Below, piece after piece: positions 7,269 through 13,961 of a DNA stretch of 64,000 nt. Within the stretch, counting starts at the first letter, position 1, and every line of letters starts with the position of its first letter. Below the pieces are notes generated by a model. The model worked only from the letters and a program-made list of their open reading frames with translations, searched no databases and had not been told where the DNA came from. The position numbers were made by a program, and so were the translations under genes. The stretch comes from Verrucomicrobiota bacterium JB022 (GTDB lineage Bacteria; Verrucomicrobiota; Verrucomicrobiia; Opitutales; Oceanipulchritudinaceae), in NCBI GenBank assembly GCA_030673845.1, contig JAUTCQ010000009.1, positions 186,001-250,000 on the forward strand, in the 5' to 3' direction.

Positions 7269-8087
7269 CGTTGGGGATGCGTTGCTTGCAGCCGCCGGCC
7301 ATGCGCGTAGTGCGCCGGCCCGACGGCAAAAAAACGACCGATCGAGACCTGCCTCAATAAGAGGAAGGTGCCCGTGGCGATTGCCGTAAGACATGCAGGC
7401 TAGGAGGCCCTGACTGCCGAAACGCTCGGCAGGGGTGACAGGGCAGACAGCAGGGAAGCCGGTCGAACCGGTGAAGGTGCTATTGGTGCCAGAGGAGACA
7501 AAAGAGGCGTGCGTAGAAGAGCAAAGGCAGCACGCCCCCGGCCATGCCCGGCGGAGAGACGCGGGGCGGCCAATACTGTGATGTGAGGTATCGCTGTAAT
7601 CATGCGGATAACGACTTGGGATCGTTTCGCGGTTTAAGCTGAACGAATACCCGCCTCTTCATAATGTCAAGAAATGGTCACATATTTCTAGAGCAATACC
7701 ACTAAAGACACGACATCGCGAAAGGGATATCGCCGATTAACCTCATTTACGTGCATACCCACATAGTAACCTAAGTTTTTATGTAGATGGATGATACAGA
7801 ATGCCATCAGGCGCTCTGATACCCCCATCACAGATAGCTTTCCATCATCATAAGGGATCCTCATACATCCTCAAATTCCGCGAATAGGCGATCTAGATTA
7901 GCCATTTTCACCTTGTGTATTCGAGCCCATTTCAAGCTTGAGCTAAGCTGAAAACGCTCAGGTAATTTTGGATTTTTCACCTATTCAATCTTACGATTGC
8001 TAGTTTGAGAGGCGACAGCGCTCCGACCAAACCAGCCACGCCACATTACCGCTATTTTAGCTTGAACTTCACCAATCAGCGGCTCAC
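7269..8087. other. Long AT-rich intergenic region without a recognisable gene
   Basis: About 820 bases separate the porin and the TonB locus. From about 7620 to 8060 the composition is visibly poorer in G and C than the flanks. No open frame here looks like a protein, and no riboswitch, tRNA or clear terminator was seen. The promoters for both divergent units probably lie here. A remnant of lost DNA is also possible. Confidence 0.5.
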
Positions 8088-8109
8088 TAATGGCACCATT
8101 ATGCCATTA
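8088..8109. promoter_or_regulatory. Perfect 22-bp palindrome, candidate operator of the TonB locus
   Basis: Arms TAATGGCA and TGCCATTA are perfect reverse complements around a 6-base spacer. A 22-base site of the same spacing, matching at most positions including the trailing GCG, lies at 11895-11916 before the second unit of the locus. The site covers the proposed start codon at 8101, so binding there would repress. The cognate regulator is unknown. Confidence 0.6.
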
Positions 8110-8958
8110 GCGTCTTCTTTTAAAGCTGCCGGTCTGCTCTTGGGGGCGACTGGCCTCTGCGCCTCCCTCTCGGCCTTGCAGGTCGTGGACTTCAACGAGT
8201 TTTCGCTGCCGGCGGAGAGCTACTACCAGGCGGCCCCCGGTGAGCGCGTCGCCATCCAGTCCAAGGGTGCAACCTTTTACCACACTCGCCCTTCCTGGGG
8301 CGGCACCTACAACGAGTTCACCTACTCGAACTCGACCGACAACACGACGCCGGGCTTCAGCGACCCGTCGAACCCCAACGACGCGAGCGCCTACACGGGC
8401 AGTGGCGATGGCGATGCCAACTACGGCATGGGCTACATCGGGATCGACTACACGGGCGACTACTCGACGATCCCGCTCAGCGTGTCGTTTGAAGCCGCCG
8501 TGGCCCCGCAGAGCATCAGCCTTACCAACTCGACCTACGCGGCGCTCTCCATGCTGCAGGGCGATGCTTTTGCCAAGCAGTTTGGCGGGGCGAGCGGAGA
8601 CGACGCCGACTACTTTCTGCTCACGATCAGCGGCTACGACGCCAGCAATCAACTGACGGGCATCGTCGATTTTTACCTCGCCGACTTTCGCTTTGCCGAC
8701 AACTCCCTCGACTACATCGTCGACTCCTGGGAAACGGTCGACCTGACCGCACTGGGCCTCGACGTGACGCGGCTCGACTTCAACCTGTCGTCCTCAGACA
8801 CGGGCATGTTTGGCATGAACACCCCCTCTTACTTCGCCTTCGACAACCTGGCGTTTGAGCCGGGCGTGGCGGTGCCGGAGCCCCGCACGGTGATCAGCTG
8901 GCTCGGCCTGGCCGCGCTGGCCATGGTGGGCCTGCGGCGGCGGGCAGCGCGCTCGTGA
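8101..8958 (+). CDS. PEP-CTERM sorting-domain surface protein, DUF4465-like
   Basis: The 285-residue secreted protein has an N-terminal signal sequence (M-P-L-A-S-S-F-K-A-A-G-L-L) and a C-terminal V-P-E-P-R-T, a hydrophobic helix and an R-R-R-A-A-R-S tail, the PEP-CTERM signal recognised by exosortase systems. The middle resembles DUF4465 proteins: V-V-D-F-N-E-F near the start, G-Y-I-G-I-D-Y-T-G-D-Y, and a late D-N-L-A-F-E-P. The start is uncertain. An ATG at 8101 is used here, but it has no ribosome site and sits inside the palindrome; an in-frame TTG at 8062 is possible. Its stop overlaps the next gene's GTG start by four bases, so it is translationally coupled to the TonB-dependent receptor. 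That coupling suggests a surface binding partner for the receptor; this is an inference. Confidence 0.72.
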   Translation: MPLASSFKAAGLLLGATGLCASLSALQVVDFNEFSLPAESYYQAAPGERVAIQSKGATFYHTRPSWGGTYNEFTYSNSTDNTTPGFSDPSNPNDASAYTGSGDGDANYGMGYIGIDYTGDYSTIPLSVSFEAAVAPQSISLTNSTYAALSMLQGDAFAKQFGGASGDDADYFLLTISGYDASNQLTGIVDFYLADFRFADNSLDYIVDSWETVDLTALGLDVTRLDFNLSSSDTGMFGMNTPSYFAFDNLAFEPGVAVPEPRTVISWLGLAALAMVGLRRRAARS

Positions 8959-10940
8959 GGCGAGTGCGTTACGAGGTGGTGCTCCTGCTCGCCCTGGGCG
9001 GGAGCGCGGTTTGGGCCGACGACGGGCCGGTCTTCGAGCTGCAACCCATCACGGTCAGCCCCTATCAGCTGCCGTTTGCAGTCGAGGAGTTCCCCGGCTC
9101 GATGGAAGTGCTCACCCGCGAAGACTTGGCCGCGACCGGCGTGCAAAGCCTTTCGGAGGCGCTGGAAAGCGTGGCGAACATCCCGATGACGTCGTTCTCG
9201 GGCAATGCCGCCAATGCGGAGGTCGACTTGCGCGGCTATGGCGAAAACAGCGGCCTGCGCACCCTCATACTGGTCGATGGCCAACCGCTCAACCGGGTGG
9301 ATATGGGCACGCCCTCGTGGCTCGAAATCCCGGTAGGCCGGGTGGAACGCGTCGAGGTGCTGCGCGGCCCACAAACCGCACGTTTTGGCAACTATGCCAC
9401 CGGGGGCGTGATCAACATCGTCACCCGGCTGGATGCTGCCGACGCCCCGCAAACGCAACTGGAGGCCGGGCTGGGCTCCGACGCCACCTTCTGGGCGCGC
9501 GCTTCGCATCGCCGCCCATTGCTGAGAGGGGCCATCTCCGTCCAACTGGAGCACAACGAAACCGACGGCTACCGCGAGAACGGCGGCTACGAGGCGGATT
9601 CGGTCGGCGTGAATTACGGTCGCCAAAGCGTCGACGGCTCACTGTTGCGGCTGGGGCTGTTTTACCTGGATAGCTTTACAGAATTCCCGGGGCCGCTCTC
9701 GACCGCAGATGGCAGGTTCCCGGACAACCCGCGCGCGTTTGGCTACGGCGAGGGGCAGGAGGACCGCTACTTTAGCGATAACCAGAAGGTGACGTTCGAC
9801 GCGGCGGCGATCAGACCCGTGACCGCATGGGATAGCCGGCTGGAGCTGCGTGGCGGTGCCACCTGGCGGTCGATGGACTACAGCTTTGGTGAGCCGCTGC
9901 CGTCGATCAACGAGCAGACGACCGTCTGGGCAACGCCGGAGTGGACTTACGAGGGCTTCGAGCACCAGACGTGGTCGGTGGGGGTAGACCTGCGCCGGGC
10001 GGATCTCTCGGTGGAGGTGCGCCAGCAGCTGGCCGGGCGCATCTTTTCGGTGGAGCCGACGCTGGAGCAGCAGATCGCCGCGCCCTTCATCGCCGGTGAG
10101 ATCAAACTGGCGGAAGACTGGACCTTGATCACGGCCGCCCGCGGTGAGTTTCACCACCTGGAGATGGACTTCGATACGGTCGATCCGGTGACGGGCACCC
10201 AGCGCGAAACCGGCCGTAATCGGGGTTTTGCCGCGCAGCTGGGCGTGCGTTGGCAGGCAAGGCCGGGCCTGAGCTTCTGGACCCGCTATGACCGGCTCTA
10301 TCGCTTCCCGGTGACCGACGAGATCGCCGCCTACCAAGGCTACGCCTTGCCCGACCGTTTCAACTCCGAGCTGGGGCCCGAGCGCGGCCACAACGGCGAG
10401 ATCGGTGCCGCGTGGGCGGGCGGCGCGGGCACATTGAGTGTCAACGTCTTTGCGCAGCGGCTCGACGGCGAGATCGTCTTCGACGGGCAGCAAAATACGA
10501 ATCTGGCCGCAACCCGGCGCGTCGGGACTGAGTTGAGCTACCGCCACACATGGTACGGCTGGGACTTGCGCCTCGCCTACACCTGGTTGGAGGCCAAGTT
10601 CGTCGATTCACGTTTTGAAGACAACAAGGTGCCGCTGGCTACCCCGCACAGCCTCTCCAGCACCCTCACGACGCCGCGCTGGTTGCGCAGTCGCCTCGCG
10701 ACCACCGTGCTCTACCGGCACGGGATGATCGAAGGCAGCGACTTCGCCAACACGCAGCCCGAGATACCTGGCTGGACGGTGGTCAACCTGGCACTGACGA
10801 CCGAACTGACGCCCAGCCTCACCACCTTTATCCGCCTCAACAATATTTTCGACCGGCAATACGCCACCCTCAAGTTCTACGGCGCGTGGTATCCCGCACC
10901 CGGGCGGCAGGCGCGCGCCGGCCTGCAATGGACTTTCTGA
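8955..10940 (+). CDS. TonB-dependent outer-membrane receptor
   Basis: The 661-residue product begins at a GTG overlapping the previous stop. A signal peptide ([12 protein letters not shown]) precedes a plug domain: I-T-V-S-P-Y, then V-D-L-R-G-Y-G, then [27 protein letters not shown] 22-strand barrel follows and ends A-G-L-Q-W-T-F, with the expected terminal Phe. The length and plug resemble BtuB-type vitamin receptors and siderophore receptors of about 600-700 residues. Such receptors use TonB energy to import scarce cofactors, metals or glycans. The ligand cannot be read from sequence. Coupling to a DUF4465-like protein, and two F-E-N-G-F proteins downstream, point to a dedicated uptake locus. 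Confidence 0.92.
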
Positions 10941-10945
10941 CGCTC

Positions 10946-11875
10946 ATGAAATACGCAACGCTTTCCCTCCTCGCCGCCGCGCCCTTGCTGGCCGGCCCCT
11001 ACTCTCCCCAAGCCGGCCAGCCCGGCAGCAATGCCGTCCCGCACGACGACCCTGCCTTTATCGCCTGGGCCGATGGCTGGCAGGACTACGTGGCGGGAGC
11101 CGATGTGACGGTCAACTTCCAGACGCCAGCCAAGGCACTCGGCCCTGCGCTGGAGGACGACGTCTACGGAATCGTATGTCTGGGCCGCGAGGGCTCGATC
11201 GTGCTGACTTTTTCGCAGCCGATCGGCGACGGTGAGGGGCCCGACTTTGCCGTCTTCGAGAACGGCTTTCGCAACAGCTTCCTCAGCGAGCTGGCGTTTC
11301 TGGAGCTGGCCTTCGTGGAGGTGAGCAGCGACGGCGAGCACTTCGTGCGCTTCCCCACCCACGCCTTGGCGCCCGACCCTATCGGCGCATTCGGCTGGGT
11401 CGATGCGAGCGATTTCCACGGCTTTGCGGGCACCTTTGTCTTGGGCTTCGGCACGCCTTTCGACCTCGCCGACCTCCCGGACGATCCCAACCTCGACAAG
11501 CAGGACGTGCGCTATGTGCGGCTGATCGACATCAGCGGCGATGGGTCCACCTTGGATTCGCAAGGCAACCCGATCTACGACCCCTACCGCACCGTGGGTT
11601 CGGCGGGCTTCGACCTCGACGCGGTCGGGGTGCTCAACGGCCCTGCGGTCGAGCTGGAGGCCGTCGAGCTGCAGTTGGTCGCGGGTGACGACGGCAGCTA
11701 CACCCTCGTCTGGCAAGGGCTGGAAGGTGCGACCTACGCCGTGGAGCAGTCTACCGATCTGCAAGTGTGGACGGCCTTGGAAACCCTAACCGGTACGGCA
11801 GGTGAGAACCGTCTCCCGGTAACGCCAGCGTCGCAGGGGGCAGCCTTCTTCCGCGTAAAGACAATCGCCCAATAG
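10946..11875 (+). CDS. Secreted protein of the F-E-N-G-F family, first paralogue
   Basis: The 309-residue product starts [17 protein letters not shown], a signal peptide; an ATG at 10928 overlapping the receptor stop is an alternative start. The core has [39 protein letters not shown] and [10 protein letters not shown]. It matches the paralogue at 11993 at each of these blocks. Instead of a PEP-CTERM tail it ends in a short Fn3-like module ([18 protein letters not shown]) common in secreted verrucomicrobial proteins. It is third in the receptor operon, only 5 bases after tonB-receptor stop. I do not know a function; ligand capture at the surface is an inference. Confidence 0.75.
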
Positions 11876-11894
11876 CCATTAGCCAGGCTTCATT

Positions 11895-11916
11895 TATTGG
11901 CAGTACATTGCCATTA
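11895..11916. promoter_or_regulatory. Second copy of the 22-bp palindrome
   Basis: Arms TATTGGCA and TGCCATTA match in seven of eight paired positions around a 6-base spacer, and GCG follows, exactly as at 8088-8109. It lies 77 bases before the start of the second F-E-N-G-F gene. A half-site-like AGCCATTAG occurs just upstream at 11876-11884. Two copies at two units of one locus argue for a shared regulator. Confidence 0.55.
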
Positions 11917-11950
11917 GCGCTTGATTCTTCCACTACAGAGGCCCAGCGTG

Positions 11951-11990
11951 AAGGGAGCTTTTGGAGCCCAACCGGCTCAGCTCCCTTTTA
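11951..11990 (+). terminator. Hairpin with T-tract directly before a start codon
   Basis: AAGGGAGCT (11951-11959) pairs with AGCTCCCTT (about 11979-11987), and GAGCC pairs with GGCTC inside it. A T-run follows and the next gene's ATG is at 11993. It could end the receptor operon or act as an attenuator of the gene it precedes. The stem leaves no room for a separate ribosome site. Confidence 0.6.
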
Positions 11991-11992
11991 TC

Positions 11993-12859
11993 ATGAAGAC
12001 ACAACTGCTCTACCTCCTCACGCTATCCTCTGCGGCGCTGCTCTCCGCGCAGTCGACACCGTATTCGAGCTTTAACGAAACGACACACCCCACCGATCCC
12101 GCGATCGCCAGCAGCAATCCGGGCATCGTCCAGTGGGCGAGCGGCGTGGTCGATTACAGCCCCGCCACCAACGTGCCGCTGTCGTCCAGCTGGCAGAACC
12201 CGAGCAACGCGCTGGGCGCCTACAATACCTCCATCGTGTCACTGGGCGAGCTGAGCGCGGCCGACATCGCCAACGGGGTCGCGCCCGGTTCGATCACACT
12301 CAGTTTTACGCAGCCAATCTATAATGGCGCGGGGGCCGACCTCGCGGTGTTCGAAAACGGCTTTGCTTTCGGCACGCCCAATGGGCTGTTTGCAGAGTTT
12401 GGCTTCGTCGAAGTGTCCTCCAACGGGGTGGATTTTGTGCGCTTCCCCAGCCTTTCGTTGAACGACGCGGCGCTGCCCGGCGGCTTCGGCTCGGCCTTCT
12501 CCGGCTTCGACGTCACCAACGTCTACAACCTGGCGGGCAAGCACTCCGCCGGCTTCGGCACACCGTTTGACTTCGACGACCTCGCGGGCGATGCCCTCGT
12601 CACGAGCGGCCTGGTGGACCTCGACAGCATCAGCTTTGTGCGGATCGTCGACATCCCGGGCGATGGCTCGTTTGTCGACTCCGAAGGCAACCCGATCCTA
12701 GACAACTGGGCGACCACCGGCAGCGGCGGCTTTGACCTGGCTGCCATCGGCGCGTTTTACGCCAGCCCGCTCGCCGCAGTGCCGGAGCCGGAAACGGTGA
12801 CGCTCTTCCTCGGGCTCGCGGCCTTGGGTTGCGTGCTGTTGGGCCGTCGCAAAGCGTAA
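11993..12859 (+). CDS. PEP-CTERM surface protein of the F-E-N-G-F family, second paralogue
   Basis: The 288-residue product has a signal peptide (M-K-T-Q-L-L-Y-L-L-T-L-S-S-A-A-L-L-S-A-Q). Its core is paralogous to the protein at 10946: A-D-L-A-V-F-E-N-G-F, F-V-E-V-S-S-N-G, A-G-F-G-T-P-F-D-F-D-D-L, V-R-I-V-D-I-P-G-D-G-S and G-G-F-D-L-A-A-I-G. It ends in V-P-E-P-E-T, a hydrophobic helix and G-R-R-K-A, a PEP-CTERM signal, so it is probably exosortase-sorted to the envelope or exterior. The frame extends upstream to 11921, but M-K-T-Q at 11993 gives the signal peptide. It has its own copy of the palindrome upstream and a terminator downstream, so it forms a separate unit with shared control. Confidence 0.78.
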   Translation: MKTQLLYLLTLSSAALLSAQSTPYSSFNETTHPTDPAIASSNPGIVQWASGVVDYSPATNVPLSSSWQNPSNALGAYNTSIVSLGELSAADIANGVAPGSITLSFTQPIYNGAGADLAVFENGFAFGTPNGLFAEFGFVEVSSNGVDFVRFPSLSLNDAALPGGFGSAFSGFDVTNVYNLAGKHSAGFGTPFDFDDLAGDALVTSGLVDLDSISFVRIVDIPGDGSFVDSEGNPILDNWATTGSGGFDLAAIGAFYASPLAAVPEPETVTLFLGLAALGCVLLGRRKA

Positions 12860-12896
12860 GCTTTCTCTACGTCCGTTCATTAGTCAAAATAGTCAA

Positions 12897-12927
12897 GACG
12901 CCTCCTTGCCCAAGGGGGCGTTTTTTT
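12897..12927 (+). terminator. Intrinsic terminator
   Basis: ACGCC-CCTT pairs with AAGG-GGCGT, with one opposed T/G position, and a run of seven T follows. It closes the second unit of the TonB locus. Confidence 0.85.
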
Positions 12928-13178
12928 ACCTACTGGAAAAGGCAGGGCCTCTACTCTATCAATTTGCACGAAAGGATGAAATTCATGCAGGCAGACTGCA
13001 TGAAGCGTTCAATTGGAAACTGGGGTAAAACCGTCCGCTCGCACCTTTCATGCTGATAACGTGATGGTTCCACGCGTAACAGACCCGGTGGCATGCGCCG
13101 TGTGACATGGCTGGCTCTGGTCGATATCACCTCTCGTGGGTATCGCGATCAGAAGTACAACTTCAACCCAAGTTGAAT
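12928..13178. other. Intergenic region with a 9-5-9 palindrome
   Basis: No gene is visible. The notable element is the palindrome at 12982-13004, listed separately. The leader of the next gene has no purine-rich ribosome site. Confidence 0.5.
12982..13004. promoter_or_regulatory. Palindrome upstream of a PEP-CTERM gene, candidate operator
   Basis: TTCATGCAG and CTGCATGAA are perfect 9-base inverted arms around GCAGA. It lies about 175 bases before the start at 13179. No T-run follows, so it is not an obvious terminator. Its sequence differs from the site at 8088. Confidence 0.4.
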
Positions 13179-13961
13179 ATGCGTCAGCTCTTGTCTACTA
13201 CTGTCTTGGCCCTTCTGGCGACCCAACCCGCCTGGGGCACCGTCTCGATCACGGGCGGGAATTTCGCCTACTACGAGGACTTCAACGACTTCGAAACGCT
13301 GGACGATCTTCCAGAGTGGACGCTCCGAGCGGCCGGCGCGAGCGAAGACCCGATGTATCTGGGCCTCGACGACGGCTCGATGAATACCGGCGGGGCCTAC
13401 AGCTATGGTCGCACGGGTAGCTCCGAGCGCTCATTCGGCTTCCTGCCCAACAACAACCTGGCGGCTAGTATCATCATCGAATTCCGCAACGATACCAGCA
13501 GCGTCATCAACGAATTCTTTGTCAGCGCAGATGCAGAGCTGTGGCACGGTGAGGCCAGCGGCAGCTCCACCTCGTTGAAGTTCAACTATATCGTGCCCGG
13601 CAACGATCCGCTCGACCGCAATTACGATGGGCTCGATTACCACTCCGGCCAAGCCCCGATCAATGGTGCGGCGAATCCCGGCCCGATCGACTCGGTGCAG
13701 CTGAGCGATTACGCGGTCGATCGCCCCATTTTGCCGGGTGAGACCTTCCTCTTCGAATTCTTCTTCCCGGTGGCCAGCGCAGGTATGGACGCGCAAGGCA
13801 TCGGCTTCGACAACTTCGTCTTTGCCGTGGGCCGCTTCGACGGGCAGCCCATCAATTACATGGAGAATATTGCCGCCGTCATCCCCGAACCTTCGACCTA
13901 CGCCGCCTTGGCTGGCGCGGCCGCATTGGGCCTGATCGCACTGGGCCGCCGTCGCCAATAG
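13179..13961 (+). CDS. PEP-CTERM sorting-domain secreted protein
   Basis: The 260-residue product has a signal peptide (M-R-Q-L-L-S-T-T-V-L-A-L-L-A-T-Q-P-A-W-G) and ends I-P-E-P-S-T-Y, a hydrophobic helix and G-R-R-R-Q, the exosortase PEP-CTERM signal. The middle (Y-Y-E-D-F-N-D-F-E-T-L, then G-I-G-F-D-N-F-V-F) looks like a beta-sandwich of the kind found in many PEP-CTERM proteins, but I recognise no catalytic family. The ATG at 13179 is the only start that gives a signal peptide; the frame upstream is not convincing. A GC-rich hairpin separates it from the convergent xylanase gene. Confidence 0.75.
   Translation: MRQLLSTTVLALLATQPAWGTVSITGGNFAYYEDFNDFETLDDLPEWTLRAAGASEDPMYLGLDDGSMNTGGAYSYGRTGSSERSFGFLPNNNLAASIIIEFRNDTSSVINEFFVSADAELWHGEASGSSTSLKFNYIVPGNDPLDRNYDGLDYHSGQAPINGAANPGPIDSVQLSDYAVDRPILPGETFLFEFFFPVASAGMDAQGIGFDNFVFAVGRFDGQPINYMENIAAVIPEPSTYAALAGAAALGLIALGRRRQ

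Follow-up and report, generated by a model that had tools for sequence, protein, structure and literature searches.

Two matching 22-bp palindromes lie in a 64,000-nt stretch of the Verrucomicrobiota bacterium JB022 genome (contig JAUTCQ010000009.1, positions 186,001–250,000; the window), the first before genes for a DUF4465 protein, a TonB-dependent receptor and a protein here called orf3, and the second before a paralogue of the latter, orf4. Sequence comparison makes it probable that these palindromes are operators of a vitamin B12 regulon under a Fur-superfamily repressor, with a role at the promoter resembling that of the cobalamin riboswitch. Such sites stand beside B12 genes, co-occur with one clade of Fur-family proteins and exchange with the riboswitch at matching genes; we infer that the clade protein binds the site, represses from it and takes B12 itself as its signal. 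The B12 theme, the wider regulon, the likely Fur-superfamily regulator and the riboswitch exchange all go beyond the first-pass annotation of the window, which had proposed a common repressor for the pair.

Direct reading bears out the 8-6-8 geometry, nearly equal arms and trailing GCG that this annotation had described for both sites. The first (TAATGGCA-CCATTA-TGCCATTA, 8088–8109) is indeed a perfect inverted repeat, 9-6-9 when the flanking C and G are counted, and the second (TATTGGCA-GTACAT-TGCCATTA, 11895–11916) has one arm mismatch; a repeat search pairs them over 25 nt at 76%. With up to three mismatches to TAATGGCA-N6-TGCCATTA, these two are the only matches in the window (mean 0.06 in 100 dinucleotide shuffles, never two), and the 4.35-Mb genome holds 8 sites versus 1 for the reversed pattern. 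The first site covers a start codon, as had been claimed, provided that the ATG at 8101 inside it, the likely DUF4465 start and followed by a signal-peptide-like N-terminus (by eye), is the true one.

A refined motif derived from the sites of this genome, WWWTGRCA-N6-TGYCAWWW, occurs there 5 times exactly versus 0 for its reversed control, and 43 times versus 7 when up to two mismatches are allowed. Equally good sites are thus rare genome-wide, against the random occurrence that had been named as the objection to a common repressor. The five exact sites are the two in the window, C1:185444, C3:86530 and C12:429128 (G, C and L numbers are our labels for genomes, contigs and loci), and their gene company (DUF4465/TonB, orf4, TonB/BtuF-like, metE, mutAB/epimerase) is that of vitamin B12: the target genes serve B12 uptake or encode B12-dependent or B12-independent isozymes. 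C1:185444 lies directly before metE (PF08267/PF01717), and C3:86530 has a TonB receptor on one side and a PEP-CTERM/PF01497 (BtuF-like) pair on the other. The mutAB locus (L012, ~4088 and ~4129) has two sites 19 bp apart, C12:429087 and C12:429128, both flanked on one side by mutAB (mutA identified by Pfam, mutB by eye) and on the other by a VOC gene resembling methylmalonyl-CoA epimerase (also by eye), genes of a B12-dependent pathway. A weak site with two mismatches lies 43 bp upstream of an N-terminal metH gene (metH by eye). C12:478057, before a 156-aa uncharacterised protein, was left as a possible chance site, and C12:224055 and C20:15416, each with three mismatches and inside a reading frame, were put down to chance.

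The metH gene of JB022 (by eye) is apparently split in two (L202:3405–7353, G000:C15), with 106 bp separating a homocysteine-domain gene of 360 aa from a second gene of 919 aa; its counterpart in G043 is one long ORF (L329).

Sites in relatives and their exchange with the riboswitch

Consensus patterns, used in place of a weight matrix over 89 genomes, found 74 exact sites versus 7 controls, with more sites upstream of TonB receptors and transporters in JB022 and across the order, the kind of support that the first-pass annotation had named. The flanks of all 74 were annotated by BLAST to reference proteins from these loci. Neighbouring genes were classified on a looser Fur-positive set, defined by E-value and including second Fur paralogues (65 sites): a B12-type gene adjoins 41/65 and lies within 4 kb of 51/65, counts that are partly circular for TonB, orf3 and orf4, whose references came partly from motif loci. 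DUF4465, BtuF-like, NrdD, CobD, MetE, MutA, epimerase or MetH genes lie within 4 kb of 32/65. In Fur-negative genomes a B12-type gene is adjacent at 1/9 and within 4 kb at 2/9, and a gene of the DUF4465-to-MetH list is within 4 kb at 0/9. Reference-free clustering of ORFs around the 74 sites gave TonB (16 genera), orf4 (11), BtuF-like (9), DUF4465 (9) and Fur (8 genera, 14 genomes) as the widest clusters, save one whose frames run antisense to TonB/orf3; no transcription factor other than Fur was recognised among the 22 widest clusters listed. NrdD genes stand at sites in three genomes (G019, G060, G088), and a CobQ/CobD island does so in G027.

In two genomes of one genus (G068 and G036; L141 site 4071, L142 site 4015), exact palindromes lie ~114 and 88 bp before purH, where a B12 link is not obvious.

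B12 uptake genes and B12-independent isozymes are mostly controlled by riboswitches, and in these genomes palindrome and riboswitch replace each other at matching genes. The DUF4465 family (PF14717) has 28 hits in 26/89 genomes, two of them truncated at contig ends (G011:C14, G016:C7). An exact palindrome lies 184–346 bp before the domain in 15 genes, where no cobalamin riboswitch (RF00174) was hit among the candidates scored (up to 25 per relative and 150 of 336 in JB022, so that misses are possible). Conversely, in 6/6 DUF4465 genes from genomes without the Fur clade described below (G032, G051, G065, G080 and two in G038), the domain is preceded at 356–490 bp by a same-strand RF00174 riboswitch, and a palindrome is absent even when two mismatches are allowed. 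The palindrome thus precedes 15/20 DUF4465 genes with readable upstream sequence in genomes carrying the clade or a degenerate member, versus 0/6 (P = 0.002, Fisher’s exact test), and a riboswitch hit is found at 0/20 versus 6/6 (P = 4e-6), related genomes not being independent. Loss of the site at orthologous loci, the other objection raised at the outset, was not what we found: the palindrome is kept before DUF4465 in 15 genomes, JB022 included.

The same exchange is seen at an AspT-like permease (PF06826). The one riboswitch found in JB022 (L205:4624–4766, G000:C17:176623–176765; 32.4 bits, gathering cut-off 31.5) lies 35 bp upstream of this gene, suggesting a B12-related role for the permease, while the G015 copy, 55% identical to it over 533 positions, has a palindrome 36 bp upstream and a similar permease in G012 (by eye) starts at a 1-mismatch site. 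With a riboswitch before its own permease and palindromes at other B12 genes, the JB022 genome seems to use both systems.

A Fur-family clade that accompanies the sites

A Fur-family gene adjoining sites was first seen at two loci (L034, L055). Fur homologues were sought in the 89 genomes, read where fetched and placed on a tree, in which a branch (97/86, midpoint root) unites 49 rows from 47 genomes (the A-clade) with the G055 protein. It sets them apart from the Zur-like proteins found outside the order and from a second paralogue within it, one with incomplete cysteine pairs; the tree has few columns, and it neither establishes nor rejects a grouping of the 49 that excludes G055 (p-AU 0.10). 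Exact sites are present in 34/47 clade-positive versus 9/42 clade-negative genomes (P = 2e-6, Fisher’s exact test), counting as clade-negative the G017 homologue, cut at a contig start, and weaker hits that were not fetched. The association holds by family (12/13 versus 2/15, P = 7e-5) and without family f1 (18/31 versus 8/41, P = 0.001). At 11/49 A-clade loci the Fur gene is no more than 4 kb from an exact site; with three more genomes in which the second paralogue is the one nearby, this makes 14 genomes overall. B12-type genes lie within 4 kb of the Fur gene at 25/49 A-clade loci, 1/20 Zur-like loci outside the order and 0/9 loci of other in-order paralogues, on loci of varying length (~1.5 kb each side upward) and with G003, G010 and G013 excluded from the nine. 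At 2/20 loci outside the order (L288, L290), the Fur gene has a 1-mismatch site at its own start.

The JB022 member of the clade (G000:C3:194985–195344, 126 aa) lies on another contig, beside a peptide deformylase gene (by eye). It matches PF01475 at 62 bits (cut-off 23.1; 53.9 bits for the relative at L034), and its AF2 monomer model (pLDDT 87.4) has a winged-helix and dimerisation fold for which Foldseek ranks Fur, PerR and Zur structures first; Foldseek and profile searches together give Fur, PerR, Zur and Mur as neighbours. All 47 A-clade rows share E69, H78 and four cysteines. At positions 75, 76, 77 and 110, which we take from Zur structures to be the regulatory zinc ligands (the HHHH stretch and a C-terminal His), His is present in 23 each of 24 aligned outside rows and in 22, 26, 0 and 5 of the 47 A-clade rows, so that the ligand set is incomplete at 77 and, in most rows, at 110. 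Because these histidines are lost, and because a few outside sisters carry the motif at their own Fur gene or have zinc-type neighbours, we read the A-clade as descended from a Zur-like ancestor, probably with the half-site kept and ligand and regulon changed.

A contig scan with a single clade-typical peptide pattern, whose 21 loci cannot measure the limits of the clade, named as carriers Puniceicoccaceae bacterium 5H, metagenome-assembled genomes (MAGs) of Opitutales and other Verrucomicrobiota, and three Cerasicoccus species. Across the phylum, 43/288 genomes drawn had a profile match at E ≤ 1e-22, and the matches from outside the order that were read have mostly Zur-like histidines.

The second Fur-like paralogue (G000:C13:52393–52749 in JB022; also L176, L178, L179) has no cysteine pairs and in some cases a long Ala/Lys tail; in G003, G010 and G013 it lies near the BtuF-like locus.

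The window locus

The genes around the two sites are listed in Table 1. A paralogue behind the second site, as first proposed, is confirmed by the alignment of orf4 to orf3 (41% identity over 238 aa, E = 1.6e-43). Also upheld is the statement that the regulator is not encoded next to the sites: Pfam names none among the nine window proteins tested around them, and the candidate is on another contig. According to PMC13398666, B12 binding is a property of the DUF4465 family, whose B. theta member sits in riboswitch-regulated loci. Profiles alone do not settle B12 versus siderophore for the window TonB receptor, and the B12 assignment of the receptor and the BtuF-like protein rests on gene company, because both score under the curated cut-offs of B12-specific models. 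Rfam gave no match at gathering in the window, nor RF00174 any at E ≤ 5 in 7300–13200.

Table 1. Proposed operators and genes of the window locus
Feature	Position	Strand	Remarks
Operator 1	8088..8109	.	TAATGGCA-N6-TGCCATTA; perfect inverted repeat over likely DUF4465 start codon
DUF4465 (PF14717) protein, B12-binding family	8101..8958	+	Pfam, 5.7e-48; B12 binding of the family from PMC13398666
TonB-dependent outer-membrane receptor (PF00593, PF07715)	8955..10940	+	Pfam
orf3, no Pfam family	10946..11875	+	Homologues found repeatedly next to TonB receptors at the sites of relatives
Operator 2	11895..11916	.	TATTGGCA-N6-TGCCATTA; 76 bp upstream of orf4 start
orf4, orf3 paralogue, second unit behind operator 2	11993..12859	+	PEP-CTERM match just below cut-off

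By eye, a long hairpin (AAGGGAGCT...AGCTCCCTT, inner stem GAGCC/GGCTC) with TTTT after it is seen at 11950–11990, directly upstream of the orf4 start. It could be a leader terminator or a mask over the orf4 start; it is absent from the output of the terminator scan, whose loop limit is shorter than the hairpin loop.

Proposed regulon and alternatives

In the regulon that we propose, the Fur-clade protein would dimerise on the 22-bp site, with each TGRCA half-site contacted by one subunit. When B12 is sufficient it would shut off the capture genes (DUF4465, the TonB receptor, orf3/orf4 and that of the BtuF-like protein) as well as B12-independent isozymes, which are metE in JB022 and nrdD in relatives; under B12 scarcity it would release the DNA, and so act at the promoter as the counterpart of the riboswitch in relatives without the protein. 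The common repressor of the first-pass annotation gains support from the further sites, from their genome-wide rarity and from their conservation before DUF4465. We infer repression, rather than activation, under B12 sufficiency from the analogy with Fur-family repressors and from riboswitch logic at the same genes. The palindrome does not look like the usual Fur or Zur boxes, as the first-pass annotation had remarked, yet its likely regulator belongs to the Fur superfamily. A further step is plausible, if somewhat short of an even chance: a Zur-type ancestor in the Opitutales lineage may have become a direct cobalamin sensor, losing the zinc histidines, keeping the half-site and replacing the riboswitch at orthologous genes. 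Cobalamin would then possibly be bound directly after the loss of the Zur-type histidines.

Several observations weigh against this reading. Exact sites are missing in 13 clade-positive genomes and present in 9 clade-negative ones; no site with up to two mismatches lies in the 8 kb around the fur gene of JB022; and the site-proximal Fur gene of G003, G010 and G013 is the second paralogue, which lacks cysteine pairs. Besides the partial circularity of the neighbour references, the looser set includes 14/65 sites whose 4-kb surroundings hold no B12-type gene, and in two genera a long ORF that resembles a sensor kinase (by eye) is found repeatedly near sites. The expected conservation at metE failed, with a site in 1/9 metE genomes. 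The mutAB genes encode a B12-dependent enzyme, an odd target for a B12-repressed switch, and are at odds with simple repression; they may be activated, or derepressed in another way. Five DUF4465 genes (G039, G056, G048, G078, G055) have neither palindrome nor riboswitch hit, with no shared alternative palindrome evident upstream of them. Over whole genomes, riboswitch presence shows only a trend (2/47 clade-positive versus 7/42 clade-negative, P = 0.08).

We consider it unlikely, at about the level of one case among a few, that the clade protein is still a metal sensor for zinc or cobalt, like its Zur-like relatives, and controls B12 uptake indirectly. The invariant cysteines, H78 and E69 fit a metal sensor, as do the metal-sensing PDB neighbours and the ZnuA or CobW-type GTPase genes near sister proteins at at least 2/20 loci outside the order (few neighbours scanned). 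Against it, the His found in 23/24 sisters is lost at position 77 in 47/47 A-clade rows, at 110 in 42/47 and at 76 in 21/47, and the targets are B12 genes that are riboswitch-controlled elsewhere. BLAST to the chosen references and inspection by eye, a survey not aimed at zinc-uptake genes, recognised none of these beside the sites.

It is less likely again, and rather improbable, that another transcription factor reads the site and that Fur genes adjoin it for a different reason. The JB022 fur gene is unlinked, with no site nearby, and in G008 a MarR-family gene (L164:4193–4669) and a TonB receptor gene are transcribed divergently, with palindromes in the space that separates them and one ~95 bp from the MarR gene, which also counts against a Fur-clade regulator. 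MarR was set aside as the regulator since it occurs at this one locus, whereas 14 genomes have a Fur gene no more than 4 kb from a site, and clade and site presence go together.

An RNA hairpin, sequestering the start codon or terminating transcription, would fit the first site, which covers the likely ATG, folds well (-14.1 kcal/mol, z -4.8) and was flagged as terminator-like. The second site folds no better than shuffles (z -0.4) and was not flagged, and sites lie between divergent genes and at varied distances from starts. Among the 74 sites the variable arm pair is G-C in 28, A-C in 17, G-T in 15 and A-T in 14, with the arms independent (P = 0.47; similar on 67 sites), as expected of two protein half-sites and not of an RNA stem, for which the A-C pairs in 17/74 would be out of place. 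The hairpin reading is rejected on the independent arms and the poor second fold, and we give it very little weight. Chance or dispersed repeat similarity, for which the clade-negative background (14 sites versus 4 controls) might speak, is refuted by the exact-motif counts in JB022 (5 versus 0) and in the 89 genomes (74 versus 7) and by the conserved position before DUF4465.

Known B12-using transcription regulators, CarH and AerR, serve light and photosystem responses. To our knowledge there is no example of a Fur-family B12 repressor, and searches of open-licence literature turned up no Fur-family B12 regulator. The excerpted text of a review of cobalt and B12 names riboswitches and CarH (PMC7689651), and that of a Zur review mentions cobalamin once, for CobW (PMC6103462). 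CarH/LitR and AerR resemble the proposed protein in being transcription regulators that use B12, and differ in using a B12-binding domain. JB022 has four hits to that domain (PF02310) at E ≤ 0.001, namely mutA (Pfam), mutB and metH (by eye) and an unassigned 484-aa ORF; none was recognised as a transcription factor, and no CarH-like regulator was recognised. Cobalamin riboswitch regulons share the genes, DUF4465/TonB B12 uptake and the AspT-like permease, with the riboswitch before DUF4465 in close relatives; here, by contrast, there is a palindromic DNA site with independent half-sites and no RF00174 match in the window. Zur shares with the clade its sequence and fold family, CxxC pairs, H78 and E69, and ZnuA or a CobW-type GTPase lies close to two of the sister loci; the clade differs in the loss of His at 77 and mostly at 110, in its proposed B12 rather than zinc regulon and in a TGRCA-N6-TGYCA site with AT flanks. 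A precedent for a tetrapyrrole ligand in the Fur superfamily is P. gingivalis Har, a Fur orthologue that binds hemin (PMC4222909); its ligand is heme and its regulon differs.

If the proposed regulon is right, a protein operator has taken over the same genes within one order, and the order would show how RNA and protein switches replace each other; Fur-family ligands would extend from metals and heme to a corrinoid. TGRCA-N6-TGYCA would then mark B12-acquisition genes in Verrucomicrobiota, including unnamed surface proteins such as orf3 and orf4, and the candidate regulator is small and open to direct testing.

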